Positions 1-48,700 of a stretch of DNA of 48,995 bases are shown in pieces. The translations under genes were made by a program, and so were the position numbers. Source of the DNA: Ectocarpus siliculosus (taxonomy: Eukaryota; Sar; Phaeophyceae; Ectocarpales; Ectocarpaceae); the NCBI GenBank assembly GCA_000310025.1, contig FN649740.1:3318244-3367238 (forward strand). Reading direction: 5' to 3'. Position 1 is the stretch's first letter; every line of letters begins with the position of its first letter. The notes below the pieces were generated by a model. The model had not been told where the DNA came from. It was given only the letters and a program-made list of their open reading frames with translations, and did not search any database.

Positions 1-2117
1 GGTCGAAGCCAGTCCCGAGCTCAGCAGCAGGGCTCCGTTCGAGCGACAACTCATTGTTGTTTATCATTGCATGCTATTCGTTGTCCACCCCGGATCCGAC
101 TACCTACTGAGATGGCGGCAATGGTCGAAGCCAGCCCCGAGCTCAGCAGCAGTACACCGTTCGAGCGACAACTCATTGTTGTTAAACATTGCATGTTATT
201 CATTGTCCACCCCATTTCCGACCTTCTACTGAGTTGGCGGCAATGGTCGAAGCCAGCCCCGAGCTCAGCAGAAAGGGCACCGTTCCAGCGACAATTCAGT
301 GTTGTTTAACGTTGCTTGATTCATTGTCCTCCCCGGATCCGACTACCTGCTGAGGTCGTTGCGACGGCCGAAGCCGGCCCCGAGCTCAGCAGCAGGGCAC
401 CGTTCGAGCGACAATTCATTGTTGTTTGTCACTGGATGTCATTCGTTGTCCACGCCGGATCCGACTACCTACTGAGTTGGCGGCAATGGTCAAAGCCAGC
501 CCCGAACTCATCAACAGGGCCCTGTTCGAGCGACAATTTATCGTTGTTTGACATTGCATGTCATTTATTGTCCACCCCGGATCCGACCTTCTACTGAGTT
601 GGCGGCAATGGTCGAAGCCAGCCCCGAGATCAGCAGAAAGGGCACCGTTCGAGCGACAATTCAGTGTTGTTGAACGTTGCATGATTCATTGTCCACCCCG
701 GATCCGACTACCTGCTGAGGTCGTTGCGACGGCCGAAGCCGGCCCCGAGCTCAGCAGCAGGGCACCATTAGAGCGACAATTCATTGTTGTTTGTCATTGG
801 ATGTCATTCGTTGTCCACGCCGGATCCGACTACCTACTGAGATGGCGGCAATGGTCGAAGCCAGCCCCGAGCTCAGCAGCAGGGCACCGTTCGAGCGACA
901 ACTCATTGTTGTTTATCATTGCATGTTATTCATTGTCCACCCCGGATCCGACCTTCTACTGACTTGGCGGCAATGGTCGAAGCCAGCCCCGAGCTCAGCA
1001 GAAAGGGCACCGTTCGAGCGACAATTCAGTGTTGTTGAACGTTGCTTGATTCATTGTTCACCCCGGATCCGACTACCTGCTGAGGTCGTTGCGACGGCCG
1101 AAGCCGGTCCCGAGCTCAGCAGCAGGGCACCATTCGAGCGACAATTCATTGTTGTTTGTCATTGGATGTCATTCGTTGTCCACGCCGGATCCGACTACCT
1201 ACTGAGTTGGCGGCCAACGGCCGAAGCCAGCCCCGAACTCACCAACAGGGCCCTGTTCGAGCGACAATTTATCGTTGTTTGACATTGCATGTTATTCATT
1301 GTCCACCCCGGATCCGACTACCTGCTGTGGTGGCGGCAATGGTCGAAGCCAGTCCCGAGCTCAGCAACAGGGCCCTGTTCGAGCGACAATTTATCGTTGT
1401 TTGACATTTCATGTCATTTATTGTCCACCCCGGATCCGACTACCTGCTGAGGTGGCGGCAATGGTCGAAGCCAGCCCCGAGCTCAGCAGCAGGGCACCGT
1501 TCGAGCGACAACTCATTGTTGTTTAACATTGGATGTTATTCATTGTCCACCCCGGATCCGACTTTCTACTGAGTTGGCGGCAATGGTCGAAGCCAGCCCA
1601 GACCTCAGCAGCAGGGCACCGTTCGAGCGACAATTCAGTGTTGTTTAACGTTGCTTGATTCATTGTCCACCCCGGATCCGACTACCTCCTGAGGTGATTG
1701 CGTCGGCCGAAGCCGGCCCCGAGCTCAGCAGCAGGGCACCGTTCGAGCGACAACTTATTGTTGTTTATCATTGCATGCTATTCGTTGTCCACCCCGGATC
1801 CGACTACCTACTGAGTTGGCGGGAATGGTCGAAGCCAGCCCCGATCTCAGCAGCAGGGCACTCTTCGAGCGACAATTTATCGTTGTTTGACATTGCATGT
1901 CATTTGTTGTCCACCCCGGATCCGACTACCTGCTGAGGTGGCGGCAATGGTCGAAGCCAGCCCCGCGTTAAGCAGCAGGGCACCGTTCGAGCGACAACTC
2001 ATTGTTGTTTAACATTGCACGCTATTCATTGTCCACCCCGGATCCGACTTTCCACTGAGTTGGCGGCAATGGTCGAAGCCAGCCCCGAGCTCAGCAGCAG
2101 GGCACCGTTCTAGCGAC
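1..2117. repeat. Left satellite array, ~121-bp units
   Basis: About 17 head-to-tail units of roughly 120–123 bp. Landmarks recur in each unit: a GAGCGACAA box, a CATTGTTGTTT box, GTCCACCCCGGATCCGAC, then TGGCGGCAATGGTCGAAGCC. The array starts before the window and stops abruptly near 2117, at GCGACATTATTCC. Several frames stay open for 80–160 codons, but they only re-read the repeat and the unit length is not a fixed multiple of three, so I do not call them genes. Variant units marked by TTGCGACGGCCGAAGCC recur near 357, 725, 1087 and 1697, which suggests a higher-order pattern. The units are related to those of the right-hand array starting at 42749. Confidence 0.93.
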
Positions 2118-4175
2118 ATTATTCCGCCTGATGCTATGGGGAGTGGTATCATACATCATCAGCCGCGCCTACGACTTCGTTTCTATTTTCTCGTTTTCAT
2201 GGCGTACCTACATTCCCACACGGGAGTTCAATCATGTGTAGTGCGTTGGTTCAATCACGTTTAGTGCATTGGGTGGTGGAGACGGTTACGCATGGTTGCG
2301 CATAGATAGCCGAATACCAGCATCCCCGTACAGGTGGCGTCATGATGAGGATGTACCGGTATGTATATAGGCACAACAGTAGCCCTCGATTGCTGTTCGC
2401 CTGCCGCTCGGTTGCAGAAACTGAACGTTGGCCGAGGCAGACGAGAAGTACAAATGGGAGCACACAGCAGACTGCTGTCGAGCAGACTGGGCGAACTGTG
2501 TGATCTCATGTGGCGGCGTCCTATGCATACCTCCAGCATGACACACGACGGAGTTGCACCGCGGGCAAGGTGACACGGTGACGGCACGGCTGTCTATTGA
2601 TAACGATGGTGGTGGATGAGATTTGATTAGCCAGCCCTAGATGAGATTTGACACGAAGACACATACTACGCGGGTTGTCAAGCCCCCAGAGTAGGTAGTA
2701 GTCCCCTCGTAGTTCCACGGCTGGTCGCTCCAGCCGAGCGTGTTCCATCATCATCTTGCCCTCGTCGCGTACGCTACGAATTTCTGCTAGCTACGGGTCC
2801 AAACTTCGATGTGGCTAGCTGCTGCCCTCCTTCCCGGGTGACCCTCCGACGCGGGCTGCGTGTTACACACTGTGCATTCCTCAACACGTGGCCCTTGGTC
2901 CAGTAGACACGCGTCTATCATACTCTTGATGCAGGAGCAGCGAGAGGCAGCAGAATGAGAACTCCGTGAGACCTTTCTTTTTGTAAGACCCCAGAAAACC
3001 AAACCAAGACTACCCAACCAACACGCCACAACAAGAACTCAAATACAACCGTAGATCTGGGTGATGTTCCGAATTCTTCCGTGCACAATAAACTACAGTT
3101 TATTCGGTCTTCGACAACAAACTTTCGAGTCATGCTACGGTAGGGGTGTCACTTTTTGGGGACTATATTTCACTACCGTTTCCATGCCTATGTCATACGC
3201 CAGTAGGCATACTTGTTTCAAACATGTTCTGCCCGACATGCACGGGGCCGGCGATATGCAAGGGGCTTGTCGACGCGAAACGTCGTACCCTCACCAAAAA
3301 ATCTAGACGGTCGAACGAGTGGTATAATCACCGAGTGGTCCGTCCATATAGGAGCCTTCAAGCCGCACTGCTGAGCTTGTTAAAGCAAGATGATTCGGGA
3401 AAGAACATGATGACCGATTGTATTTTTACGAGTCCAGTCAACCTCCTTGCTCTTGGTGCCATCGTTACATTCTACCGTGGAGGCTATTTGTCTAGGGTGT
3501 CGCCAAATTAGAAAAACCAAACCAACTGGAGGGCACACCGTCGTCGAAGCCCTAGCGACGGGACGCCACTGAATACCATACAGCCCTCAATCAACGTTCC
3601 AGGACATGCTGGAACGATGCTGGGAACGTTCATCCCGTAATCACTTGGATGTGTAGTCGATCGAGGATACTCCTCGTCCAAGATCGATCCTGGTCAACAC
3701 CGCGTCAAAGTATCTGGGACACAGAACAGATGCATGCAGAACAACTCGCACAACTTCAAGCCACATAGCCCCACATGTATGTCCATATGTTCAAAGTTCC
3801 AATAGATATTTCTATGCGTCACTTCCCCACAGCGCAGTCTCGTATCTACTGAGGTGACGGACAGCACAGCCATAGGGACTTATTGCCATCCATCCAGCTG
3901 ATGCCCAAAAACGTAACACGTGGGCGCCAGGACGTCCGCCACAGTCTACAGCAAGAGCTTTCTTAGGAAAATGATCAAAGACGGCCCCCCTCCTGATTTA
4001 TCGAGGAGATCTCTTGGCCACAAGAACAAGTAGCACATTTTTCCCCGGGGGGACCACTAGATGCTCATTCGCAACCAGGCCTTGCCTGAGGAGTTGCGCC
4101 TAACGCTAGCGCTATACCTGCTACCGTCTTGCCCCCCAGCAGACAGGCGATACTCGGTTGATATCTTGACCATCA
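2118..4175. other. Intergenic stretch between the left satellite and the minus-strand gene
   Basis: Two kilobases of non-repetitive DNA. I see no exon chain with matching splice phases, no RNA gene and no clear promoter. The only open frame worth noting is the one at 3146–3511. This stretch holds the region downstream of the minus-strand gene that ends at 4176, so its 3' UTR and polyadenylation signal should lie near 4000–4175; no motif there is convincing. Confidence 0.5.
3146..3511 (+). CDS. Unrecognised open frame, possible exon
   Basis: An open frame of 121 codons beginning at GTG; the first ATG lies internally, just before a CPTC motif. The translation has a Cys-containing segment (PCLC, then CPTC, then IC), a basic stretch (KRRTLTKKSRR) and a leucine-rich helix-like part, so it could be a genuine exon. 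No splice partners with matching phase were found and no family is recognised. A chance open frame is an equally good explanation. Confidence 0.22.
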   Translation: MSLFGDYISLPFPCLCHTPVGILVSNMFCPTCTGPAICKGLVDAKRRTLTKKSRRSNEWYNHRVVRPYRSLQAALLSLLKQDDSGKNMMTDCIFTSPVNLLALGAIVTFYRGGYLSRVSPN

Positions 4176-5052: not shown

Positions 5053-8000
5053 CTGTGGGAAATCAATGCAGGGGTCAACAATCGAACCAGGGACAACAAT
5101 TACCTCTGGAATGGACGATTCTGACGCGGCTACTCGACCGATCAGATACCAAATACGATGCCGAGTGACGGCAGGAACACCACACTATTGTAGCTCGCTA
5201 CATTTCGACCGACCAGCTCCAAATACACAGATAATATGCATACTGAGTGATGGTGAGTATTGCACAAAAGTAGTAGTTACCCTGGTTCCGTCGGTGAAAC
5301 TTACCAGCCGAACATCATCCAAGGAATTGGTATATACTGTTTTGACCGATCAGCGTAAATACCAAACCCAAAATGCCAATTTGAAGCCAAAGTGACAATT
5401 TGTTCCAAACATTTGGGATGTAAGTGAACGCAGGAACACCAAGCTAACTCTCTGCTCTTCGACCGAGGAGCTTCAAATACATGTATAGAATGTTGGGGGA
5501 TAGTTGTACTGGACGAAAGAGAGTTGGCGTTGTTTTCGTCGCGCAACTTACCAGCACAACATGAAGGAATTTTGGTGGCGGCTGTTCGACCGAAGAGCGT
5601 AAATACCAAAGGCAAAAAAAGAAAGTGCCAAGTCACAAGTTATTATTCACCAAACAATGTATAGTGATCGCAGGAACACCAGGCTAACTCGCTATTCGAC
5701 CGAGGAGCTCCGAACATCTCTACAGAATATGGAATGATAGTTGTACTGGACGAAAGAGAGACGACCTTGTTTCCCTCCCGCAACTGACCAGCACAAAATG
5801 CACGGAAGTGGGTCATGGCTGTTCGACCGATCAGCGTAAATACCAAAAAACGAAATGCCAAGCCCCAAAATGTTACTCACGAAACACCTAAATACTTGGA
5901 GTTGGATGTAGTAAGTGATCGCAGGAACACCAGGCTAACCCAAACATCTCTACGGGATTTCGAATGGTAGTTGTATTGAACGAAAGAGAGGCGACCTTGT
6001 TTCCCTCCCGCAACTTACCAGCACAACCTGCAGGAAAGTGGGTCGTGGCTGTTCGACCGATCAGCGTAAATACCAAAAAAAAAATGCCAAGTTACAAAAT
6101 GCTGTGCACCAAACACTTGGATGTAACGCAGGTCGGGTGCTATTCGACCGACATACCGGGTATATTTTCAGTGAGAGTGTGTTGGCAAAGATAATGACCG
6201 TGAACTTACCTGCAGGACAAGGTGTAGGTAGCCAGGACGCCTGGCGTTTCGGTGGCGACGGTTTTGCTGATGGCTTGGCATCCTTGAACCTTGATCGCCT
6301 TCGCTTCGGAGCGACAAGCTGAACGAACTGCTCCCGAAATGGCCCCTGCGGCTTGGAAAATGTACTTTCTGCCTAGGAGCGTATTCGGCTTCTTCGTGAT
6401 CAGAAGTGTCTTTCTCTCGTCTGATCTGCTTTCGCCTCCCCACACCTAACGGTAGAATCATCAGGCGATATGAAGGTGGTCGGGTCAGTTTGACACGCAG
6501 GTGTCCCCATGCCAATGTTTTTCGGTGTGGCCACGTGGAAAGGCGATAGTGTTTTGGTTGGATATAGATCGCCAGCTCCGTCCGAGGTTTCATCCGTCCC
6601 TGATTCTGCCTAACTGCATTGTCGGCTACAGCTCAAAGTACGTATGCCGTCATACTTGCAATTTCATCTGGACGGTTAGGTTGTAGGCAATCACCACTAT
6701 CTATTATTTTCATAACGCAGAAAAAATGAAAATAAAGATCCACACCCTACACCACCCTCCATGTCAGGACCATCGTATACTCGCCTTGGTCATGAGCAAC
6801 TGATCTCCACCTCTGCTGCTTGTCCTGGCAGTCTCAAAGGTCATCGCTTCGTCTTCGGTCGGCTCCAAAAGCATGAAGTCCATCGATTCACCGAGGAGGG
6901 TACAGAGGTGTCTGGGGCTCTGGACTACCCAGGACTGGTTGATGATGTTGTGCCTCGTTACGCCTTTGGTGTTGGCCCCTTCGCTATCAGAAGAGCTTTT
7001 TCCGTGGCAACTACCAAAGTAGTGATGCTCAATGTGCACTGGTACGTTGGTAGACTCGCCGTTGGTGTCACAAACCATCACCGCGCGGGAAGCAAGCCAG
7101 CCGAAATGAAACCTGCACTTGAACTGCTTGGCGCAGTTATCGGTGAAGAAGATCGCTAGCACCATGGCGGGAGCGCCTAGTTTCCGCATCAACGCTGGGA
7201 CATGCTCCGTCAGAATCTTGAACATGACATGCTGCACCCACGCATGGTCCTGGGTTCTATCGTCGCTGAGAACTTGGAAAGAGTAGGACCACACACGGCC
7301 CTTCCACTTGAAGTAGATGGGACAGGGGAATATCGTTACACTTTCGTGCTGCCAGTGCTGGGCTTGTACTTCGTCCTGCTCGATGAGCTGAAGCTGCTCC
7401 TGGAAGTCGAAGACGAAAACCACCGTACCTTCCTCCAGGGTACGTAGGGTTTCGTGGAACGCGCTCCGTTGGTTGTGATACTGCCTCCGGTGAGGAATGT
7501 ATCGCCGGAATATGTCCTTAAATTCTTTGGTGAAATCGTCGACAGTCCCCGTCTTGGTAGCAACAGCCTGGGACGGGATATGGCCAAATGATAGACATCG
7601 ACGTGGTGCTGTTCGTATTCACCCCGAGATTACATGGGTACACGCCACTCTTGTCTGTTTCCGATGATCAGGGACAGCCCTTCAGGACCACACAAGCACG
7701 CACGTTCTCGCTACCAGCTGCTCTATCGACTAGCTTGAGGTGGGTCATCAGCGAGGAGGTAGGGGACAGTTGGACGAGCTTATTCAATTGTAGTCCATAG
7801 TCTATCTGAGAGTTTTCAAGCTCCAGGTTGTTGATTCAAGCATAAGCAATGCAATCTACAGAGCCGGGAGGCAGTAAACCACGATTAAGGGATGTTATGA
7901 TGTGCGTATACTATCAAACACCCGAACGCTGAGAAACAGTATTGCGTACAACGCTGCGTCCAGTACAGAGTAATCCCTTCACGAATCGATCGATGGCTCG

Positions 8001-23827: not shown

Positions 23828-26800
23828 GTATCTGATTTCGTGCAGATCGTCGACAACGGTTGCTTAGCGCCGGGCCGACCTATGTTCGGTTTAAATACAG
23901 GAAGGTTTGTTCGTCGAAGCAGATAGAATAAACTGGTGTTTATTTTGTAACAGTCGAATTAGAATTTGGGCTTCATTTTCTACCGGAAAACCCAGGGTCA
24001 CGGTGTTTGGAATTATTAGTCTATAGTTGGGGGTGTCATTCCGTGATCGAGTCCACGCAGGGGCTGTAGCAAAGTCGGGTAACGTGTGACAGCTACAGAG
24101 CGCGTGAAGCAACGGAAGGACAGCAGCAGCCGCCTAACGCAGTAGCGGCGGCAGTTTAGAAAAGGGCGGGACGGGACACGGCGCAAGCATTGGGGAAGTG
24201 ACCAGCACGCGACTCTCCATATAAAGGTGTGTACTCGTGTCCAACATCCATCGTGTCGGCCGTGTTCCTATTCGCGTCCCGCTACTCTTGTGACCTCACC
24301 GCTGCGTGCATTTAGCACGAGGGGGGAGGGTGCAGTAAGATAAGCGGCGGCAAGCCAACGCAGTCTCGCTCGCCGCGCCGCTCAGATAGGTCCCTTCCCA
24401 AACATGGGATGCGGTTCATCCCAACCGAGACGTACTCTCGCTGAAGAAAAAAAATGCGGTTCGTCCCAACCAGACGTACTCTCTCTGAAGAAAAAAATCA
24501 ACGGCAAAAAGAAAGAGCGGGGCCTGTTGTATGGTCGCACGCTGACTTGTCGCGGTTGATAGCAGCCATTGTACTGCACGGGGTGGAGGAACCCTGCGGC
24601 ATCGGACATAACCAATCGACCCGCGGCAGTAGGGCATGATGCTGTCACGATTATGCACATGAGGCAGGTGCCTTGTTTTCTGTTTCCCCCGGCTTACTAG
24701 GGACTACTTGCCGGTACAATCTTGTCTGTGCCGCGCACAGAGGGGCATATAGCTGAAGGAATCGACGATAATATGCCCACTCACGTAAGCAATCGTCTCC
24801 ACGGATGGTATTGACAAGTCCCCACTGATGGTATCGACAAGTCCCATGGCATACAAAGCGGCCGCATACGTAATCGGAAAGTGCATTCAACAGCATTCAC
24901 GGGAACGGATAAAAGCAAAAACACATGCATGCGAGAGAAAGACTCAAAGAAAAAGACTGAAAAACAATGAAGACGAGAAAAAAAAAACGAGACAGCGAAC
25001 TACGTGCTGTATGCATAAGGAAAAAAGAAGATGAGAAAAAAATAGGGGGGGGGGAGGTGGATGTGACACGCGAGGTTCGAACTCGCGAGGAACGTCAGGT
25101 AGCGGTCCATGTGAGTGCATCACGGTCTCGAGGGGCATCACGTCAAATTTATTGCCGCCGTGACACAAACCTTCTATAAGAATACGTCACGTCCATCGAC
25201 GATTAAGCGACCAAAAACGCCCGGACAGCAATTGATGCATGCCAAAAACTCGTCAACCTGCCGTAGGATTGTCTATGCGGAAGTGATCTCAATGAAAATA
25301 AAAAAAAACAAGGACACGCACCAGCACGGGACGCGCCAATAGTGGAAGCACTCGTCCGTGCTGTTGGCGAGTGGAAGTTAACCGATCTCAACGCAACGAA
25401 ACACGAAGTCATACATGTATCAGCACGGGATGCGCCAATGAGTGGAAGCACCCGCGCTGTTGGCGAGTAGAGTTAACCGAATTCAACGCAGCGGTAGAAA
25501 AATACCACAAATCAAACATCAGTACGGGACGCGCCAATGAGTGGAAGCACCCGTGCTGCATATGTGATGTCAGCCTCAGCACGGGACGCGCCAATGAGTG
25601 GAAGCACTCGTGCGGTTGGTGAGTAGAGTTAACCGATCTCAAAAAGAAAGAACAAAACGCCGTACATGTATCAGCACGGGACGCGCCAATGAGTGGAAGC
25701 ACCCGCGCTGTTGGCGAGTAGAGTTAACCGAATTCAACGCAGCGGTAGAAAAATACCACAAATCATGCATCAGTACGGGACGCGCCAATGAGTGGAAGCA
25801 CCCGTGCTGCATATGTGATGTCAGCCTCAGCACGGGACGCGCCAATGAGTGGAAGCACTCGTGCTGTTGGCGAGTAGAGTTAACCGATCTCAAAAAGAAA
25901 GAACAAAACGCCGTACATGTATCAGCACGGGACGCGCCAATGAGTGGAAGCACCCGCGCTGTTGGCGAGTAGAGTTAACCGAATTCAACGCAGCGGTAGG
26001 AAATACCACAAATCATGCATCAGTACGGGACGCGCCAATGAGTGGAAGCACCCGTGCTGCATATGTGTTGTCAGCCTCAGCACGGGACGCGCCAACGAGT
26101 GGAAGCACTCGTGCTGTTGGCGAGTAGAGTTAACCGATCTCAAAAAGAAAGAACAAAACGCCGTACACGTATCAGCACGGGACGCACCAATGAGTGGAAG
26201 CACCCGCGCTGTTGGCGAGTAGAGTTAACCGAATTCAACGCAGCGGTAGGAAATACCACAAATCATGCATCAGTACGGGACGCGCCAATGAGTGGAAGCA
26301 CCCGTGCTGTATATGTGTTGTCAGCCTCAGCACGGGACGCGCCAACGAGTGGAAGCACTCGTGCTGTTGGCGAGTAGAGTTAACCGATCTCAAAAAGAAA
26401 GAACAAAAACGCCGTACACGTATTAGCACGGGACGCGCCAATGAGTGGACGCACCCGTGCTGTTGGCGAGTAGAGTTAACCGAATTCAACGCATCGAAAA
26501 CGAAGTCGTACACGTATCAGTACGGGACGCGCCAATGAGTGGAAGCACCCGTGCTGCATATGTGTTGTCAGTTTCAGCAAGGGACGCGCCAATGAGTGCT
26601 GTTGGCGAGTAGAGTTAACCGATCTCAAAAAGAAAGAACAAAAACGCCGTACACGTATCAGTACGGGACGCGCCAATGAGTGGGCGCACCCGTGCTGTTG
26701 GGCGAGTAGAATTAACCGATCTCCACGCATCGAAAACGAAGTCATACACGTATCAGTACGGGACGCGCCAATGAGTGGAAGCACCCGTGCTCATATGTGT

Positions 26801-29800
26801 TGTCAGTTTCAGCAAGGGACGCGCCAATGAGTGGAAGCACCCGCGCTGCGTACAAGTATCATCAGTGCGGGTCGCGCCAATGAGTGGAAGCACCCGTGCT
26901 GCATATGTGTTGTCAGTTTCAGCGAGGGACGCGCCAATGAGTGGAAGCACCCGCGCTGTTGGCAAGTGGAGTTCACCGTATCCAACGCATCGAAAAAAAA
27001 AAAAAACACGTATCAGCACGGGACGCGCCAATGAGTGGAAGCACCCGTGCCGATGGCGAACCGGGGTTCACCGAATCCAAGAAAATATATATATAAAAAA
27101 AAAAAAGAGAAACCATCGCTAGTGTTCCAAAGAGAGAAATATTCGGGATTGGTCGACGTCCGGTGACCGTAGCGTCAGCAGCAATAATCACTCCATTCAA
27201 TCCACAGGCGTCGAGAATGAACTAACGCGAGCTCGCGATATAACAACGCGTCGTTCTGGGCCCGACGAAAACCCACGTCAGATAGTTTCGCCCGAAGATA
27301 GGATTTGTAGACCATTCTAACTGCAGATCCAGGCGCGCGATCGACTACGCCCACGATGAAGAGGAAAAGAAGTGTTCCCGCAACGCCGCCCTGACGCTCG
27401 CCCGCCGCCTGCCGCCGGTCCGCTGCTTATACGACTCCAACCGCGACCAGATGCCGACACGGGCCTCCACGCGGAGCGGCAGGGCAGCGGCTGGGCAAGC
27501 AGGGCGAGGTCGGGCGGCGACACCTTCGACACCACGCACGAGAGGTCTACCGCGCGATCGGTGGCGAGCTCGACGGCTCGCCCCTCGACGCGCAGCGGAT
27601 CACGTACTCCCGCGAGGCGTCGAGCGGTATCCTCCTCGCGAGCGCCAGGGACAGGCACCCGCGGCGACCCCCCCGCTGATGAGACTGAGCTCGCTTCTCT
27701 CCGCGGGCTGGTGGACGGCCTGAGGGAGGAGCTGCAGCGGAAGCGCGATGAGGCTGCCGGTGATCGCCAGCAGCTTCAAGCAACGATCGACGACCTGATC
27801 GCCACCCAAGCAGCAGGACCTGGCCTTCCGGGGGGGGGTGCAACTTGTGGGCACAACCGCCCCACCATCGGCCTCTCGGGCCCCCGCTACACCCAGCGCC
27901 GAGGCGGCTAAGGCTACGGCAAAGGATAGAGCGCGGATGTGGGGGGACCTCCGCCGGGTAAAAGCGTGGCTCATCCTGGGGCGGCCCCCGGCAGTTTCAA
28001 AACTGTCGCAGATGGAGTGGCAATCCTTGCTTCGCAAAGGCGTCCTGGTGACAGAGAAAGTGGCGGCATCGCTCGACACGCTCGTGGTTACTGCTTCGCC
28101 TTCAACTCGTCGTCCGGTTGCCATGATCGTAACTGCCCACACATCCACGCCCAGAACCCTTCCCACGCTAGGCGCGGAGCGTCCGAAACTCCGGCAACCG
28201 GCGCGCGCGGCGTTGGCCACGGCAACGGGGGAGGGCGCGGAGGAGAGGCGCGCGCCGCTGGCGAGGGCGGCGCGAGACCCAAGGCCGCTGGCTTCTTCAC
28301 CCACGGGAAAGACAAATAGGGGTGCGGGCTCTCCCGCGTAGCGGGGGGGCCTACCTCGGATGGCAGCGCACCTGCGGCTAAATCGAACGGCAGCACGCCG
28401 GTCTACACGAGGTTGGCTCCAGGGCTATCAGCAGGTTCAGGACCTGGGACAGGCAGGACGGGACTTTGTTACCGACGTCTTGGCATGCAGCTCGTCGAGC
28501 ACTCAGTTGCGTCTTCGTCTAGAAGGACTTACACGTCAGGCTTCAACTCTTGGTGCACGTTTCGCAGGCTGACGGAGAAGCCCAAGTTCCTAGGGCAACG
28601 TGCCGGGGACCTTCATGTGTGGGAGTTGATAGACTTCGTAGCCTGGTGTTTCGAGTCTGAGGGTAATCTAGCGAGTACAATATCCGGAAAACTCACGGCT
28701 GTACAACATTTTCATAGGCTGGAAGCTTCTGTCGAGCTAGACTTGTCGTCTCCGATGTTGAAATGTGCGCTAAGGGGGATTGCGAGGAACCACGTGGCTG
28801 TGGGGACGGTACGCCGTGTGCGCCTGCCTGTGTCTTGGCGTATGCTGCTGGACGGGGAAAGCGCAAGCCAGAACTGGGGGGAAGGGGGCAGAGTGATGTG
28901 GCTGTGTCTGTGCTTGTCCTATCTCTTTATCACACGGTCTGATGAGGTGTTCGCGAATGATGCGGGCAGGGTGCATGAGGCACACTGTCTTACGAGGGCG
29001 GACGTAGCATTGTTTGCTGGCGAGACGCAATTAGTCTTTAGTCACTATCGTAGAGCAGACCGTGTCGAAATGAGGTTTAGAGGGCACAAGGCCGATCAAG
29101 AGCAGAAAGGAAACATACGGGTTCGTACGCGAGACGAAGTCACCGGACCGCAGTCAGGTGTGAGAGCACGCGGTGGCGCGGTGGCTCTTGTGGTGGAGCT
29201 GTTATCGTGTCATGCGACGTTCCCTGACTCCGCACCGTTGGCTTCGTACCGTAGTGGAAGAGCAGTGAGAGTAGTGAGGTATACTGCTGCCCTCCGTGCA
29301 CTCAGAGAAGTGGTAGCGAGGTCGGGGCGTAACCCCCAGGAGTACGCGTTGCACTCGTTGCGAATTGGAGGCGCGACGGCTCTTGCATCGGGCGGAGACA
29401 TCGCAGAACGAGTGATTCAGAGAGAAGGGAAGTGGAGGTCGGATGCATACAAGCCGTACGCGCGAAACAATGTAGAGGATTCGCGGCGAGTGTCACGGAA
29501 ACTTACAGACGGCAGTAGGATCGTATCGAGACAGCCGGGGGAGGGGACCGTCTGGGGGAACGGATAGTTGACTTATTCGGTAGTCGTCCAGAAACTGACC
29601 TCGATGTGGGTGTTGTAGAATGGTGTGTACCATTTGAGGACTTGGTCAGTTTTGGGACTCCTGCGTTTGCAGTCGTAGTCCCCCGGCTAGTATTTGTGGG
29701 GAGAGAGATGGATTTGTAAGAGTTGACGCCGGCCTTTGCAGCTAACGCGGCCGGAGAGACGATGAGCGTTTCGTGCGTCTCTCTCCCCAACACGTAGCCT

Positions 29801-32800
29801 AGAAACCGAAGAAATAATGAAGCAATTCGAAAGAAAACAAAATAAAAGGAAGGTTTGTTCGTCGAAGCAGATAGAATAAACTGGTGTTTATTTTGTAACA
29901 GTCGAATTAGAATTTGGCTTCATTTTCTACCGGAAACCCAGGGTCACGGTGTTTGGAATTATTAGTCTATAGTTGGGGGTGTCATTCCGTGATCGAGTCC
30001 ACGCAGGGGCTGTAGCAAAGTCGGGTAACGTGTGACAGCTACAGAGCGCGTGAAGCAACGGAAGGACAGCAGCAGCCGCCTAACGCAGTAGCGGCGGCAG
30101 TTTAGAAAATCCCGCCCTCCCATCCCTTTTCTTTCGAAGGTGGGGGCATAAGTTCGGGAATATTCGGTATCTAGTCAGGTGTTGTAGAATGGTGTGTACC
30201 ATTTGAGGACTTGGTCAGTTTTGGGACTCCTGCGTTTGCAGTCGTAGTCCCCCGGCTAGTATTTGTGGGGAGAGAGATGGATTTGTAAGAGTTGACGCCG
30301 GCCTTTGCAGCTAACGCGGCCGGAGAGACGATGAGCGTTTCGTGCGTCTCTCTCCCCAACACGTAGCCTAGAAACCGAAGAAATAATGAAGCAATTCGAA
30401 AGAAAACAAAATAAACAATGCTTTTAGACCTGTTACTGCACAGCACATCGCGAGGGAGATTGAGGACAGGAATGGCCTGTCCACCTCGACCACGGCAGTG
30501 GCATTGACCCCGCCTCGGGAAGATTGGGGGACGCCGGAGGGCTGGCTGGATGCAGTCGAGAACGCGCTGAAGAAAACCAAAGACGGCGAGGTGAGACATC
30601 CTAACCACGGTGACACATGTCTTGATAATGCTTCAGCGATTCAAACGTGGCCGGAACCCAGCAGCTGCATCCGGCGAAAACATAGAACGAGTGGTTATAT
30701 GGGTGTTGTGTGGTCTAGGCTACAACAGTCAACTCGTCGACGGCAATGCCGGATCACCACACGATTACCCGATGTAGTCTATATATAATTCGACAGCTGG
30801 AAGCTGCTGGTTGTTTTTCTGAGACACAAATCTTCGGTCTTTTCTAGGGCTGGTTTTGTATTTTATCTTGTTCTTGCCTCGCAGCCTCCCTCAACACCAC
30901 TCACTCGATCTTGGGTTGCGCTCTCAATTTATGGTACAGGGCAAGGCCGACATTTCTCGGCGGATTGAGACCGTCCGGAGCTCCCAATCCAAAATATCAT
31001 GGGACGCCGCCCTGAAAGCATCCACGTGGGTAAGTGTTGTGGAGCTGCTGCCATGGTCTCGGGTGTAGAAGCGTAGGTTGTCCACCTAACTTGCCACAAC
31101 AGTAGCGTTTGGCCGCGTGGTCACCCCTGTGGGATATTTGAGTGGAATAAAATGTGTTGGACAAAGTTGGAACTGTTTCTTTTCAAGAACAAGGGAGTAC
31201 GAAGACGAGACATCCACCATCGAAAACCGTGCTCGGGCTACCCTGCCGTTAACACTGTCGCCCGAAGTCTACCCTGTTTTCCCGGAAAGCCGCGATCCAC
31301 GATGAAGTAGGGTAAGGATGATTGAGTTGTAAATTGCCCTAGTTTTCAACCGAATGTAGGACATCGTGTTTCCAAAGTTTCCCAACCCCCCACGCCCTTG
31401 GTCTTACCGTTCGATCCGATTTCGCGCAGGACATCGAGCACGGCCAGGTTGAGCACGAGTTCGAGGATCACCGCCCGCACATGGTCACGACTCAAGGTCA
31501 ACATCGTTTCGCGGTGCTCAATGCCGCGTTGCACGAGCAACTGGGCCTGTCACTTTCACGAGGCGGAGACCTTGGGGAAGAAGGGGTCTTCCACGGCGAA
31601 AAAGGTCAGTGTTAGCTTGATCGGTCGAGGAGCCATGAGGAACACATGGAGTATCCCTCGATACACACTGAATCGTCTTAGAGCAATGAGGAAATAAATG
31701 TAAATATATAGTGTAGACGAATATATCCGGTCAAGGAGATACTTCTAGGAGGGAAGCATGGAGTATCCCTCAATTCAACCTGATCGGCCAAGGAGCGATG
31801 ACATAACGAGGCAAACACTGGGTGCGTCCGAAATAATGCACACTGACCGACTGATCGGTCGAGGAGCAATAATGAAAAACCAAGGCAAACCACGTCCCTC
31901 GATATAAGCTTTTCGATCCCCCACAGCCACGGGGAACACATGGAGTATACATCAATACACATTGAATGGCCTGAGAGCTATGAGGAAATACCAATTTGTT
32001 GTGGGTCGAAAAGTTAGGAGGGAAGCGTGAAGTATCCCTCAACGCAACCTGATCGGCCGAGTAGCGATGACGGAATAACGGGGCAAACAATGGGTAAGTC
32101 CGAAAGTTGTGCACATTGATCGGCCTGGGAGCAATACTGAAAGGTATAGGCAAACGCTCGGTACGCCCCGCGTTTTGAGTCTTTCGGCCCCCCAGAGCCA
32201 CGGGGAACACATGGAGCATTCCTTGTTAAGATGTAGAGCATACCATGCTACGAGTCAGTCAGCGCTGACGTAGCAAAGTGGATGTGCTGTACATCTTAAC
32301 AAAAGTGCGACCGGGATCCTTCCGCCTGTTATAGAGCTGTTGGACCTCGGTAAACCCCAGAGTTGTAATCCCTGTAATCAGCGCTGCCCCCATGCGGTTC
32401 ATCGCATTACAGGGCGGGAATATGTGTCTTCCCTTGAACGACTGGAATGTAAACCGTCTTGCTGACTTGATGCATAGTGGATATGCTGTACATGTTAACA
32501 TCCCTCAATACACAGTGATTTGCCATCACCGCAACGAGGAGATATCAATTTCTAGTGTAGCATATGTATACCGATCAAGGACCTAGTAAGGAATCATGAG
32601 TCTACCTAATCGGCCGAGGAACGATGACGGAATAGAACGGGGCAAACAATGGGTAGTCTAAGTCCGAAAATTATGCACACTAATCGGTCTGGGAGCAATA
32701 TTTTAAATACAAGGAAAACACAGGATACGTCACTCGCTACAGGACGTGTCGGTCGAGGAGAAACGAGGTCAAATTAGAAGAGTACACAAAGGTACACGGC

Positions 32801-42109: not shown

Positions 42110-42748
42110 TCCAAGGCAGACGGCGGAGCAGTTGCTCTGGTGGTGGCGTCGTTGTCATGTTGTGCAACGTTACCCGATGACGCGCCGCTAACATCCTGTC
42201 TTAGTTAAAGGTTGTGCAGTGCAAGTTCTGAAGTATGCCCAAGCCCGCGGAGCTTCGAGGCAAATAGTTACGAAATAGGGGTGAATCCCAGAAACTAACG
42301 CGCGCTGCACCATTTAGCTAAGGATTTGGGAATTTGCTGCATATGGCTGTTGGGGGCAACACATTGGAACGAGTATCCCGAAGGGCGGGAAGATGAGGTC
42401 AGAGGAATGTGTAGCAGACGCTCACAATAGAGGACTCGCAAGGGGTGTCCCGTTCGGTACGACATAGCGAGTCGGGAGGCAATCGGGGGAAAGCACTGTG
42501 TGCGGTAGGTAGGCAGTAACAGGAGCTAATCCCACTGCACGAGTAGTGTCATGATGACCTCGATGTTGGCGAAGAAAATGGTAGGGTACTATTTTAGGGA
42601 CTTGGTCATCTGAGACTACTGTGTGCAGTAAGATTGGTTCCCTCCACCGCAGGAGAGGGCACCCTCAGTTGCTGTTTGGAGGGAAGTAGAGAGACTGTCT
42701 TTATTGGGAGAGAGGGAGAGGCACGATAGAAAGGCCGCAGAAACGTTC
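42110..42748 (+). pseudogene. Decayed copy of the tyrosine recombinase and B repeat
   Basis: From ~42120 the DNA parallels the recombinase gene: GGCGGAGCAGTTGCTCTGGT matches the region encoding GGAVALVVELLSCHATFPD, and ~42300–42445 matches the region from HSLRIGG through GKWRS to the frame's end, with stops and gaps throughout. The active-site His-Arg-Tyr residues are not preserved. From ~42550 it parallels the start of B (ACCTCGATGT, AGGACTTGGTC, then TTTG-AG and GAGAGAGGGAGAG). It ends where the right satellite begins. It is much older than the 23899–30415 element and no A repeat was found with it. Confidence 0.72.
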
Positions 42749-45700
42749 GCACCTCGTATCCGACAAACATACTGAGAGTGCGGCGGTGGCCGAAGCAAGC
42801 CACACACTCAGTAGCAGGGCACCGTACAAGAGACGAATACCCGTATTTTGTGCTCCGGGTCAGTTTAAAATACCGAAAGTGCGGCGGTGGCCGAGGCCAG
42901 TCTCGCGCTCAATAACAGGGCACAATACAAGCGACATATTGTGTCAAACAGTGTCAACGTTTGCACTTCGTATCCGACTAACCTAGCGAGAGCTTGGCCG
43001 TCGCCAAACCAGTCTCGCGCTCATTAACAGGGCGCCGTACAATCGACATGTTGTGTCAAACAGTATGTACGTTCGCGTTTCGTATCCGACAAACATACTG
43101 AGAGTGCGGCGGTGGCCGAAGCCAGCCACACACTCACCAGCAGGGCACCGTCCAAGCGAGGTTTCGTGTCAAATAGTATATACTTTGGCACTTCGCATCC
43201 GACGAACATACTGAGAAGGCGGCGGTGGCCGAAGCCAGCCACACTCTCAGTAGTAGAGCACCGTACAAGATACGAATACCCGTATTTGTGCTCCGGGTCA
43301 GACTAAACTACGGTAACTGCGGCGGTGGCCGACGCCAGTCTCATGCTCAGTAACAGGGCACAATACAAGCGACACATTGTGTCAAACAATATCAACCTTT
43401 GCACTTCGTATCCGACTAACCTAGCGAGAGCTTGGCCGTCACCAAACCAGTCTCGCGCTCAGGAACAGGGCGCCCTACAATCGACATGTTGTGCCAAACA
43501 TTGTATACGTTTGCACTTTGTATACGACAAACATACTGAGAGTGCGGCGGTGGCCGAAGCAAGCCACACACTTAGTAGCAGGGCACCGTACAAGAGATGA
43601 ATACCCGTATTTTGTGCTCCGGATCAGTTTAAATTACCGAAGGTGCGGCGGTGGCCGAGGCCAGTCTCGCGCTCAATAACAGGGCACAATACAAGCGACA
43701 TATTCTGTCAAACAGTGTCAACGTTTGCACTTCGTATCCGACTAACCTAGCTAGAGCTTGGCCGTCGCCAAACCAGTCTCGCGCTCATTAACAGGGCGCC
43801 GTACAATCGACATGTTGTGCCAAACATTGTATACGTTTGCACTTCGTATACGACAAACATACTGAGAGTGCGGCGGTGGCCGAAGCTAGCCACTACACTC
43901 ACCAGCAGGGCACCGTACAAGCGACGTTTCGTGTCAAATAGTATATACTTTGGCACTTCGCATCCGACGAACATACTGAGAAGGCGGCGGTGGCCGAAGC
44001 CAGCCACACTCTCAGTAGTAGAACACCGTACAAGCGACATATAGTGTAAAACCTTATATACGTTCGCGCTTCGTATCCGACAAACATGCCAAGAGTGCGG
44101 CCGTGGCCGAAGCACACCACACACCAGTAACAGGGCACCGCACAAGAGACGAATACCTGTGTTTGTGCTCCAGGACAGACTAAACTACCGAAAGTGCGAC
44201 GTTGGCCGAGGCCTGTCTCGCGCTTAGTAACAGGGCAGGGTACAAGCGACATATTGTGTCAAACAGTGTCAACTTTTGCACTTCGTATCCGACTAACGTA
44301 GCCAGAACCTGGCCGTCGCCAAACCAGTCTCACGCTAAGTAACAGGGCACCGTACAAGCGACGTTTCGTGTCAAACAGTGTATACGTTCGCACCTCGTAT
44401 CCGACAAACATACTGAGAGTGCGGCGGTGGCCGAAGCAAGCCACACACTCAGTAGCAGGGCACCGTACAAGAGATGAATACCCGTATTTTGTGCTCCGGG
44501 TCAGTGTAAAATACCGAAAGTGCGGCGGTGGCCGAGGCCAGTCTCGCGCTCAATAACAGGGTACAATACAAGCGACATATTGTGTCAAGCAGTGTCAACG
44601 TTTGCACTTCGTATCCGACTAACCTAGCGAGAGCTTGGCCGTCGCCAAACCAGTCTCGCGCTCAGTAACGGGGCGCTGTACAATCGACATGTTGTGCCAA
44701 ACATTGTATACGTTTGCACTTCGTATACGACAAACATACTGAGAGTGCGGCGGTGGCCGAAGCCAGCCACACACGTACTAGCAGGGCACTGTACAATCGA
44801 CGTTTTGTGTCAAACAGTATATACTTTGGCACTTCGCATCCGAAGAACATACTGAGAGTGCGGCGGTGGCCGAAGCCAGCCACACACTTACTCGCAGGGC
44901 ACTGTACAATCGACGTTTCGTGTCAAACAGTATATACTTTGGCACTTCGCATCCGAAGAACATACTGACAGTGCGGCGGTGGCCGAAGCCAGTCACACTC
45001 TCAGTAGTAAAGCACCGTACAAGATACGAATACCCGTATTTGTGCTCCGGGTCAGACTAAACTACGGAGGTTGCGGCGGTGGCCAAGGCAGTCTCATGCT
45101 CAGTAACAGGACACAATGCCAGCGACACATTGTGTTAAACAATATCAACCTTTGCACTTCGTATCCGAAGAACCTAGTGAGAGCGCGGTCGTCGCCGAAG
45201 CCAGTCTCCCGCCCAGTAGTAGGGCACCGTTCAACCGACATCTTGTGTGAAACCTTATATACGTTCGCACTTCGTATCCGACAAACATACCAAGAGTGGG
45301 GCGGTGGCCGAAGCACGCAACACACCAGTAGCAGGGCACCGCACAAGAGACGAATACCTGTGTTTGTGCTCCGGGTCAGACTAAACTACCGAAGATGCGG
45401 CGTTGGCCGAGGCCTGTCTCGCGCTTAGTAACAGGGCAGCGTACAAGCGACATATTGTGTCAAACAGTGTCAACTTTTGCACTTCGTATCCGACTAACGT
45501 AGCCAGAACCTGGCCGTCGCCAAATCAGTCACACGCTCAGTAACAGGGCACCGTACAAGCGACACATTGTGTCAAACAGTGTATACGTTCGCACCTCGTA
45601 TCCGACAAACATACTGAGAGTGCGGCGGTGACCGAAGCAAGTCACACACTCAGTAGCAGGGCACCGTACAAGAGACGAATACCCGTATTTTGTGCTCCGG

Positions 45701-48700
45701 GTCAGTGTAAAATACCGAAAATGCGGCGGTGGCCGAGGCCAGTCTCGCGCTCAATAACAGGGCACAATACAAGCGACATATTGTGTCAAGCAGTGTCAAC
45801 GTTTGCACTTCGTATCCGACTAACGTAGCCAGAACCTGGCCGTCGCCAAACCAGTCGCACGCTCAGTAACAGGGCACCGTACAAGCGACACATCGTGTCA
45901 AACAGTGTATACGTTCGCACCTCGTATCCGACAAACATACTGAGAGTGCGGCGGTGGCCGAAGCAAGCCACACACTCAGTAGCAGGGCCTCGTACAAGAG
46001 ATGAATACCCGTATTTTGTGCTCCGGGTCAGTGTATAATCCCGAAAGTTCGGCGGTGGCCGAGGCCAGTCTCGCGCTCAATAACAGGGTACAATACAAGC
46101 GACATATTGTGTCAAGCAGTGTCAACGTTTGCACTTCGTATCCGACTAACCTAGCGAGAGCTTGGCGGTCGCCAAACCAGTCTCGCGCTCAGTAACAGGG
46201 CGCCGTACAATCAACATGTTGTGCCAAACATTGTATACGTTTGCACTTCGTATACGACAAACATACTGAGAGTGCGGCGGTGGCCGAAGCCAGCCACACA
46301 CTTACTAGCAGGGCACTGTACAATCGACGTTTAACAGTATATACTTTGGCACTTCGCAACGGACGAACATACAGAGAGTGCGGCGGTGGCCGGAGCCAGT
46401 CACACTCTCAGTAGTAGAGCACCGTACAAGATACGACTACCTGTATATGTGCTCCGGGTCAGACTAAACTACGGTAACTGAGGCGGTGGCCGACGCCACT
46501 CTCATGCTCAGTAACAGGACACAATACAAGCGACACATTGTGTCAAACAATGTCAACCTTTGCACTTCGTATCCGAACAACCTAGTGAGAGCGCGATCGT
46601 CGCCGAAGCCAGTCTTCCGCTCAGTAGTAGGGCACCGTACAAGCGACATATTGTGTGAAACCGTATATTCGTTCGCACTTCGTATCCGACAAACATACCA
46701 AGAGTGCGGCGGTGGCCGAAGCACGCCAAACACCAGTAGCAGGGCACCGCACAAGAGACGAATACCTGTGTTTGTGCTCCAGGTCAGACTAAACTACCGA
46801 AGGTGCGACGTTGGCCAAGGCCTGTCTCGCGCTTAGTTACAGGGCAGCGTACAAGCGGCATATTGTGTCAAAGAGTGTCAACTTTTGCACTTCGTATCCG
46901 ACTAACGTAGCCAGAACCTGGCCGTCGCCAAACCAGTCTCACGCTCAGTAACAGGGCACGGTACAAGCCACACATTGTGTCAAACAGTGTATACGTTCGC
47001 ACCTCGTATCCGACAAACATACTGAGAGTGCGGCGGTGACCGAAGCAAGTCACACACTCAGTAGCAGGGCAGCGTACAAGAGATGAATACCCGTATTTTG
47101 TGCTCCGGGTCAGTGTAAAATACCGAAAGTGCGGCGGTGGCCGAGGCCAGTCTCGCGCTCAATAACAGGGCACAATACAAGCGACATATTGTGTCAAGCA
47201 GTGTCAACGTTTGCACTTCGTATCCGACTAACCTAGCGAGACCTTGTCCGTCGCCAAACCAGTCGCACGCTCAGTAACAGGGCGCCGTACAATCGACATG
47301 TTGTGCTAAACATTGTATACGTTTGCACTTCGTATACGACAAACATACTGAGAGTGCGGCGGTGGCCGAAGCCAGTCACACTCTCAGTAGTAAAGCACCG
47401 TACTAGATACGAATACCCGTATTTGTGCTCCGGGTCAGACTAAACTACGGAGGTTGCGGCGGTGGCCAAGGCAGTCTCATGCTCAGTAACAGGACACAAT
47501 ACCAGCGACACATTGTGTCAAACAATATCAACCTTTGCACTTCGTATCCCAAAAACCTAGTGAGAGCGCGGTCGTTGCCGAAGCCAGTCTCCCGCTCAGT
47601 AGTAGGGCACCGCACAAGAGACGAATACCTGTGTTTGTGCTCCGGTTCAGACTAAACTACCGAAAGTGCGCCGTTGGCCGAGGCCTGTCTCGCGCTTAGT
47701 AACGAGGCAGCGTACAAGCGACATATTGTGCCAAACAGTGTATACGTTTGCACTTTGTTTGCGACCAACACACTGAGAGTGCGGGGGTGGCCGAAGCCAG
47801 CAACACATTAGTAGCAGGGCACCGTACAAGATACGAGTACCCGTATTTGTGCTCCGGGTCAGACTAAACTACGGAGGTTGCCGCGGTGGCCAAAGCCAGT
47901 CTCACGCTCAATAAGAGGGCACCATACAACGACATAGTGTGTGAAACAGTATATACGTTCGCACTTCGTATCCGACAAACATAACAAGAGTGCGGCGGTG
48001 GCCGAAGCACGCCACACACCAGTAGCAGGGCACCGCACAAGAGACGAATACCTGTGTTTGTGCTCCGGTTCAGACCAAACTACCTAAAGTTCCGCGTTGG
48101 CCGGAGCCAGTCTCGCGCTTAGTAACAGGGCAGCGTACACGCGACATATTGTGTCAAACAGTATTAACTTTTGCACTTCGTATCCGACGAACCTGGGGAG
48201 CCCTTGGCCGTCGCCAAACCAGTCTCGCGCTCAGTAACAGGGCACCGTCCAAGCGACATATTGTGCCAAACAGTGCATACGTTCGCACTTCGTATACGAC
48301 AAACCTACTGAGAGTGCGGCGGTGGCCGAAGCCAGCCACACACTCAGTAGCATGGAACCGTACAAGCGACGTTTTGTGTCAACCAGTATATACTTTGGCA
48401 CTTCGTATCCGACGAACATAATGAGAGTGCGGCGGTGGCCAAAGCCAGCCACACACTCAGTAGCAGAGCACAGTACAAGATACGAACACCCGTATTTGTG
48501 CTCCGGGTCAGACTACATTACGGAGGTTGCGGCAGTGGCCGAAGCCAGCCACACACTCAGAACCAGGGCACCGTACAAGAGACGAATACCTGTATTTGTG
48601 CTCCGGGTCAGACTAAACTACGGTAACTGCGGCGGTGGCCGAGGCAAGTCTCGCGCTCAGTAACAGGGCAAAGCACATTCGACGTATTGTGTCTAACAGT

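Follow-up and report, generated by a model that had tools for sequence, protein, structure and literature searches.

We analysed a stretch of 48,995 nucleotides from the brown alga Ectocarpus siliculosus (assembly GCA_000310025.1, contig FN649740.1, positions 3,318,244 to 3,367,238 of the forward strand), referred to here as the window. It contains an element with split direct repeats and an open reading frame (ORF) for a tyrosine recombinase (YR), and without a reverse transcriptase (RT) gene. The element is probably best explained as a non-autonomous member of a recently amplified family of Ngaro-like YR retrotransposons, mobilised in trans by RT-bearing sisters and derived from such elements by splicing. 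Its features are as follows:

23899..30415, forward: whole RT-less Ngaro-like element with split repeats; the same ends occur elsewhere with other flanks, and L025 is an RT-bearing sister
23899..24163, forward: repeat A1, left end, 265 nt
24164..25284, forward: leader, common to RT-bearing sisters at 85-88% identity
25322..27050, forward: tandem array of 251-bp units; RT-bearing sisters have an array too
27286..28319, forward: Gag remnant in several frames, ending at TAG 28317-28319; an intact relative Gag is found in L037
28083 and ~28206-28210, forward: internal deletions in Gag, placed by comparison with L025
~28092-28148, forward: CCCH motif, real, but the Gag frame around it is disrupted by frameshifts and deletions
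28320..29567, forward: YR ORF, 415 codons, of which the first ~38 derive from the leader of the RT ORF
28432..28569, forward: RNase H relic, the last 46 codons, in another frame beneath the YR start (tblastn, 72% identity to L024, E 6e-14)
28434..28435, forward: RT-RNase H excision junction; 2,054 nt are absent relative to the sister, where they have GT...AG ends
29609..29846, forward: repeat B1, 238 nt, adjoining A2; the joint resembles two element ends joined
29847..30109, forward: repeat A2, 263 nt
30110..30177, forward: 68-nt spacer from A2 to B2, kept in sisters
30178..30415, forward: repeat B2, right end, 238 nt

Compared within the window, B1 and B2 are identical over their full length, and two single-base indels are the sole differences between A1 and A2. 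The inner B1|A2 joint, AAAATAAA|AGGAAGG, is that of two element ends joined, with small variants in a few copies. The array makes up about half of the interior upstream of Gag; the leader upstream of the array is ~1.1 kb long, the non-array interior before Gag comes to ~1.1 + 0.3 kb, and the longest stop-free stretch of the leader is 103 codons. A single frame from 27360 to 29567 has three internal stops, the last of which is the TAG at 28317-28319, immediately 5' of the YR ORF. Five leader ORFs were scanned against profiles (ORFs only) with no match to RT, and tblastn of RT-RNase H against the window returned nothing beyond the tail relic at E values up to 10.

Residues R206, K257, H345, R348, W372 and Y380 of the 415-codon ORF are invariant in the aligned YRs (six, one partial). 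The protein had no match in Pfam or PHROGs profiles and none in a PDB sequence search, and its single-sequence AlphaFold model was unusable, with a pLDDT (predicted local distance difference test) of 31.4. We therefore describe it as a probable YR on its motif, position and relatives, without a profile or fold match. A PF00589 search of the genome gave one weak place only, in locus L011, whose match to the YR is limited to 47 residues at 34%, and a YR search of viral contigs found none. An apparent 1,341-codon frame at C241 proved to be a run of N (locus L008, 2,883 N).

An earlier note on this DNA, made from the letters alone, had described a complete A1…B1-A2-B2 architecture with nearly identical copies, and its order and coordinates are right. 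The residues it gave as R175, K226, H314, R317, W341 and Y349 are the six invariant ones above at an inferred offset of 31, and its observation that no RT is visible agrees with the profile and tblastn results. It had also reduced the interior to a Gag-like CCCH region and the recombinase; both are present, but the Gag frame is broken, and the 251-bp array and the RNase H relic went unmentioned.

RT-bearing relatives were sought with a degenerate HxLRxG(G/A)AT-motif pattern designed to skip the window family (28 matches, control 0). Among the four places read, L021, L022 and L024 have long RT-RNase H and YR frames, while in L023 the RT and YR pieces are broken up by an insertion resembling a long interspersed nuclear element. 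With the 746-codon ORF of L024 as query, at least 64 matches were found (60 of 514 candidates scored). We also searched the 189-Mb assembly itself by tblastn with the window YR and obtained at least 102 matches, a lower bound since 101 of 756 candidates were scored. An RT match lies immediately upstream in six of the 102 listed (C74, C79, C27, C187, C147 and C156). The copy at C74, L025, runs A1, leader, array, Gag (564 codons), RT-RNase H (768), YR (392) and B1-A2-spacer-B2, with no further ORF between RT-RNase H and B1, and its A and B repeats are 97-98% identical to those of the window. L026 resembles L025, with a small A2 duplication, and L027 was read to A2 only; in both, the Gag stop is followed by the RT ORF directly in frame. 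Identity to the window YR is 96-98% in L025, L026, L027, L035 and L036, and 93% in L034. The sisters' RT matches Pfam RVT_1 weakly (E 0.0081 to 0.14, below the cut-off), and its YVDD and RNase H motifs were identified by visual inspection. A genome search with PF00078 (best 150 of 1,041 candidates), compared by eye, had no RT match within 10 kb of the listed YR matches; this list could not reveal the sisters, as DIRS-type RTs score far below it. Compared with L025, two pieces of Gag (~0.51 kb and ~0.08 kb) and the 2,054 nt of RT-RNase H are missing from the window element, so that by alignment it is an RT-bearing sister minus three internal pieces.

Two other structures were noted among the copies read. 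L028 (C85:167300-171300) is RT-bearing and 95.5% identical to L025 over 1.9 kb, with most of the YR gone (L025 7519 to 8577); here the loss is the converse one, and the printed ends are not GT...AG. L009 and L010, but not L020, carry an additional ~2.6 kb that was suspected to contain an RT; four L010 ORFs scanned gave no Pfam match.

The RT-less form is a family. Thirteen of the listed YR matches, the window among them, are identical across all 415 residues, and 48 of the 102 cover residues 1 to 413 or beyond. At least 61 (identity ≥94%, start at residue ≤23) cross the RT-excision junction. The others listed comprise 12 from a second RT-less family (81-85%), three at 86-88%, of which two (L029 and L030) are also of the second family, the six adjacent to an RT, and 20 partial or unplaced. 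The figure of 61 is a lower bound because L006, L007 and L019, among these 20, carry the junction. RT-bearing copies, counted only among the matches listed, are possibly undercounted too. Among the YR matches listed, RT-less copies far outnumber RT-bearing ones.

We read 14 further family loci (L003-L008 and L012-L019), and 10 of them, including L008 with its N run in the interior, show all four repeats in order between unrelated flanks, indicating that the repeat order of the window element is more than chance. The three internal breakpoints are common to 13 of the 14; L008 has N there. Element ends are sharp and flanks differ between loci, A-rich bases often precede A1, and no target duplication was visible at the loci read. 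Over the YR region, mean distance within the window family is 0.0065. Only one B is present in L017, giving A...B without A2-B2; A1 of L018 was not found within the stretch read, and the left end of L019 lies beyond it. A solo A-spacer-B unit (569 nt) lies at ~530-1098 in L019, inside a run of A in the leader of another copy, where a clear target duplication was not seen. After its A2, L014 (C26:3443100-3450900) has a second leader at 6605-7138, without spacer and B2, an arrangement that looks like two elements sharing one A repeat. Two short variants, L032 and L033 (C247 and C33), have the YR from about L025 position 7525-7533, ~0.4-0.7 kb past an A start, and appear to be another RT-less deletion form.

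Trans-mobilisation is the simplest account of this family because of the shared ends, the RNase H relic and the youth of the copies. Very probably, the RT-bearing sisters provide RT, RNase H and Gag in trans; the B1-A2 joint would assist the copying of the RT-less RNA, and either the element's own YR or that of a sister would then insert a circle carrying a B|A joint. Movement without RT, in which the YR excises and inserts DNA circles as in Cryptons, is by comparison very improbable. Cryptons are YR DNA transposons without RT ancestry and without split repeats, thought to move by YR-mediated excision and insertion of such circles. The YR ORF is indeed intact in many copies (the 48 noted above), and the solo A-spacer-B unit of L019, the A...B form of L017 and the A2-to-new-leader run of L014 could arise by recombination at A or B. 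However, solo and tandem forms also arise by ordinary homologous recombination, the sisters share ends and YR, so that a retrotransposition route is available, and the RNase H relic means descent from a retroelement. The intactness of the YR is explained by youth, and the ratios of replacement to silent substitution rates (dN/dS) do not demonstrate selection: for the YR of RT-less copies they are 0.16, 0.47 and 0.27 against L025, L035 and L034, and for the second RT-less family 0.70 against L034, while the window and L016 differ by five replacement changes and one silent change, all of these being small counts. Membership of the Crypton class is contradicted by the relic, the split repeats and the RT-bearing sisters.

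We give practically no credence to the opposite polarity, in which the RT-less form is ancestral and RT-RNase H was inserted later to give the RT-bearing form. The far greater number of RT-less copies would fit it, but the RT-less form carries the RNase H tail as a relic, and RT-bearing copies occur to either side in the tree as well as in the more distant families L021, L022, L024 and L038.

These comparisons bear on the alternatives raised in the earlier note. Of the two it offered, mobilisation in trans is the better supported, as RT-bearing sisters share the ends, whereas a distinct RT-independent class is not supported: those longer sisters and the RNase H relic are findings of the kind the note itself had named as refuting. 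The genome-wide comparison it proposed did yield many copies with the same RT-less layout, though not a distinct class. Nor is the element a single deletion product: the RT-less form was amplified, and the excision recurs, as described below. In general, where RT-bearing sisters have the same ends, complete split repeats around a YR without an RT do not constitute evidence for a class that relies on the recombinase alone.

The missing 2,054 nt begin GTGTGG after CAG and end TGGCAG before GTTC, as is canonical for an intron. The join keeps the frame, produces the 415-codon ORF and puts the YR in frame behind the Gag/RT leader. The donor CAG|GTGTGGATGC is also present in L024 (~32% divergent in the YR), which, in coding sequence, is weak support. 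The second RT-less family (L009, L010, L020, L029 and L030) has the same join and a different Gag deletion, with L029 additionally lacking some bases just before the join. At the ninth base before the join, the window family shares T with L025, L026, L027 and L036, and the second family shares A with L034. None of four other internal deletions (two in the window Gag, one in L009/L010/L020 and one in L034) has GT...AG ends as printed.

Phylogenetic trees also separate the two families. With six RT-bearing copies (L025, L026, L027, L034, L035 and L036) in the later trees, L034 groups with the second RT-less family (support 91 in the YR tree and 100 in the three-region tree), and the other five are nearer the window family. 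Forcing all RT-less copies together was rejected by approximately unbiased (AU) tests, with p-AU 1.6e-5 for 25 copies over 1,586 columns without an outgroup and 3.6e-6 for the YR with L024 as outgroup; a single shared RT loss for both families is thereby rejected. The 25-copy test excluded L008 for its N run, and both AU tests and the window-family majority excluded L032 and L033, which are cut off where the YR begins. The later trees did not include L028 and L031, and after the first site counts L023 no longer served as outgroup.

A third case came from a search for further RT-less families, which gave 12 matches 59-61% identical to the query, seven with a 398-codon frame and one, C183, with 422. 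The C183 locus, L037, is a single copy with a 496-codon Gag ORF containing a CCCH motif, one stop, and then the YR in the same frame. It is without 2,063 nt that L038 has, between flanks 97-98% identical in L038, and can be split like an intron as AAG|GTGGGA...TGGCAG|GAAC, with the acceptor at the codon homologous to the window's acceptor. Another genome search, with the YR of L022, listed 105 matches. Taken together, the alignments and trees suggest that the same excision occurred at least twice, plus the third, similar case of L037.

Because the loss is recurrent, in frame and has intron ends, reverse-transcribed spliced RNA is its likeliest origin. We consider it likely that RT-RNase H is an optional GT-AG intron of the RT-bearing element and that the RT-less families come from reverse transcription of the spliced RNA. 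Unspliced RNA would give Gag and, beyond the Gag stop codon, RT-RNase H; spliced RNA would give Gag and, beyond the same stop, YR, so that splicing and the Gag stop codon together would split one transcript between production of RT and of recombinase. Reverse transcription of the spliced RNA would then yield RT-less Gag/YR families, or 'processed retrotransposons'. We also consider likely the broader proposal that brown-algal Ngaro-like elements carry their entire RT-RNase H gene as an optional spliceosomal intron, that RT-less families arose repeatedly and that one or more of them, moving in trans, came to outnumber their parents.

Several observations weigh against the intron, and some of them favour an ordinary deletion derivative, in which RT-RNase H was lost through microhomology repair or template switching, GT...AG is coincidental, and the copies would again have spread in trans. 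In both families a 6-nt repeat, GCAGGT, lies at the join, which makes microhomology-mediated loss possible; the join of L037 lies at a 3-nt repeat, AGG, where other placements fit and the GT...AG placement is not the best by mismatches (4 vs 3). Further deletions found in these elements show short overlaps but not the ends of an intron. The acceptor is without a clear pyrimidine tract, and its TGGCAG encodes a conserved Trp-Gln, a conservation that need not reflect splicing. In L035 the ninth base before the join is G. Earlier site counts, with three RT-bearing copies, were ambiguous on the root, with nine sites grouping the window family with RT-bearing copies, five grouping the two RT-less families and one the third way; the picture changed after L034, L035 and L036 were added. 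Recombination could have carried a very short tract around the join from one family to another, and the dN/dS values and substitution counts do not establish selection on the YR in RT-less copies. A deletion origin is nevertheless rather unlikely, because one pair of breakpoints was used twice despite 19 shared 6-mers in the local area and 254 in the wider one, of which only 1 and 2, respectively, contain AGGT, and because an independent third case lies at the homologous acceptor, in frame.

Recurrent excision by splicing would offer a testable answer to how a recombinase ORF that overlaps RNase H is expressed, and a route by which autonomous elements spawn their own parasites. If RNA data confirm it, YR retrotransposons would join BARE and retroviruses as elements that produce a subgenomic RNA by splicing. 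BARE, a long terminal repeat retrotransposon of barley, has a spliced subgenomic RNA and a parasitic subfamily (PMC3735527), and in hepatitis B virus encapsidated spliced RNA is turned into DNA (PMC8668879). The likeness is that a retroelement RNA is proposed to be spliced; those two are not YR elements, and in the parts of these sources available to us an RT-less genomic family from spliced RNA is not described. No spliced Ngaro or PAT RNA was found in the titles and abstract openings listed from the open-licence literature.

We place the window lineage as Ngaro-like by features and published descriptions. The A1-[ORFs]-B1A2B2 order with internal repeats downstream of the YR is present in the window, L025 and L026, and so is the YR with R, K, H-x-x-R, W and Y in the aligned proteins. 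The encoded RT and RNase H are absent from the window element and present in the sisters, which makes it a non-autonomous derivative and not a complete Ngaro. Split direct repeats are also a PAT-like trait, but the methyltransferase was not found: PF05869 gave no candidate in the genome, a model that may miss the DIRS type. TOC1 of Chlamydomonas is RT-less with an internal tandem array.

In the literature, Ngaro elements are characterised by split repeats, an RT, a YR and the lack of a methyltransferase (PMC4157794, PMC8547959). The window lineage shares the repeat layout, with internal repeats downstream of the YR, with Ngaro-like YR retrotransposons (order DIRS) such as those of Cafeteria burkhardae (PMC8547959) and Ectocarpus (PMC12477816), and like Ngaro the sisters here are ordered Gag, RT-RNase H, YR; no Dam-type methyltransferase was found. 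Unlike Ngaro, the window family has no RT-RNase H, a broken Gag and a long tandem array. Type 2b deletion variants in Cafeteria are, in the portion seen, without ORF1, whereas the window family is without RT (PMC8547959). SIRE, a truncated non-autonomous relative of VIPER, is likewise a YR-retrotransposon derivative with split repeats, but as excerpted it retains the ends alone, whereas the window family retains the YR ORF (PMC6681497). Like TOC1 and TOC3 of Chlamydomonas, the window family has split repeats in an alga; Toc3 falls among PAT elements, with a methyltransferase and no Gag zinc finger (PMC4157794), while the window family has a CCCH motif and no methyltransferase was found. In Ectocarpus sp. 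7, 15 Ngaro and 5 PAT-like families are counted in the part of PMC12477816 available, and the window lineage may already be annotated in such a repeat library.

Outside the element, cysteine repeats of the EsV-1-7 type (PF19114) were very abundant genome-wide (best 150 of 880 candidates scored, controls 0/14); all listed matches were above the cut-off, often several per frame, and the domain is described, in an excerpt, as having proliferated in brown algae (PMC12477816). Two more large tandem arrays flank the element, at window positions 1-2118 and 42743-48677, with periods of ~122/365 and 113/326 bp and a similar-looking GCCGAAGCCAGCC motif in both.

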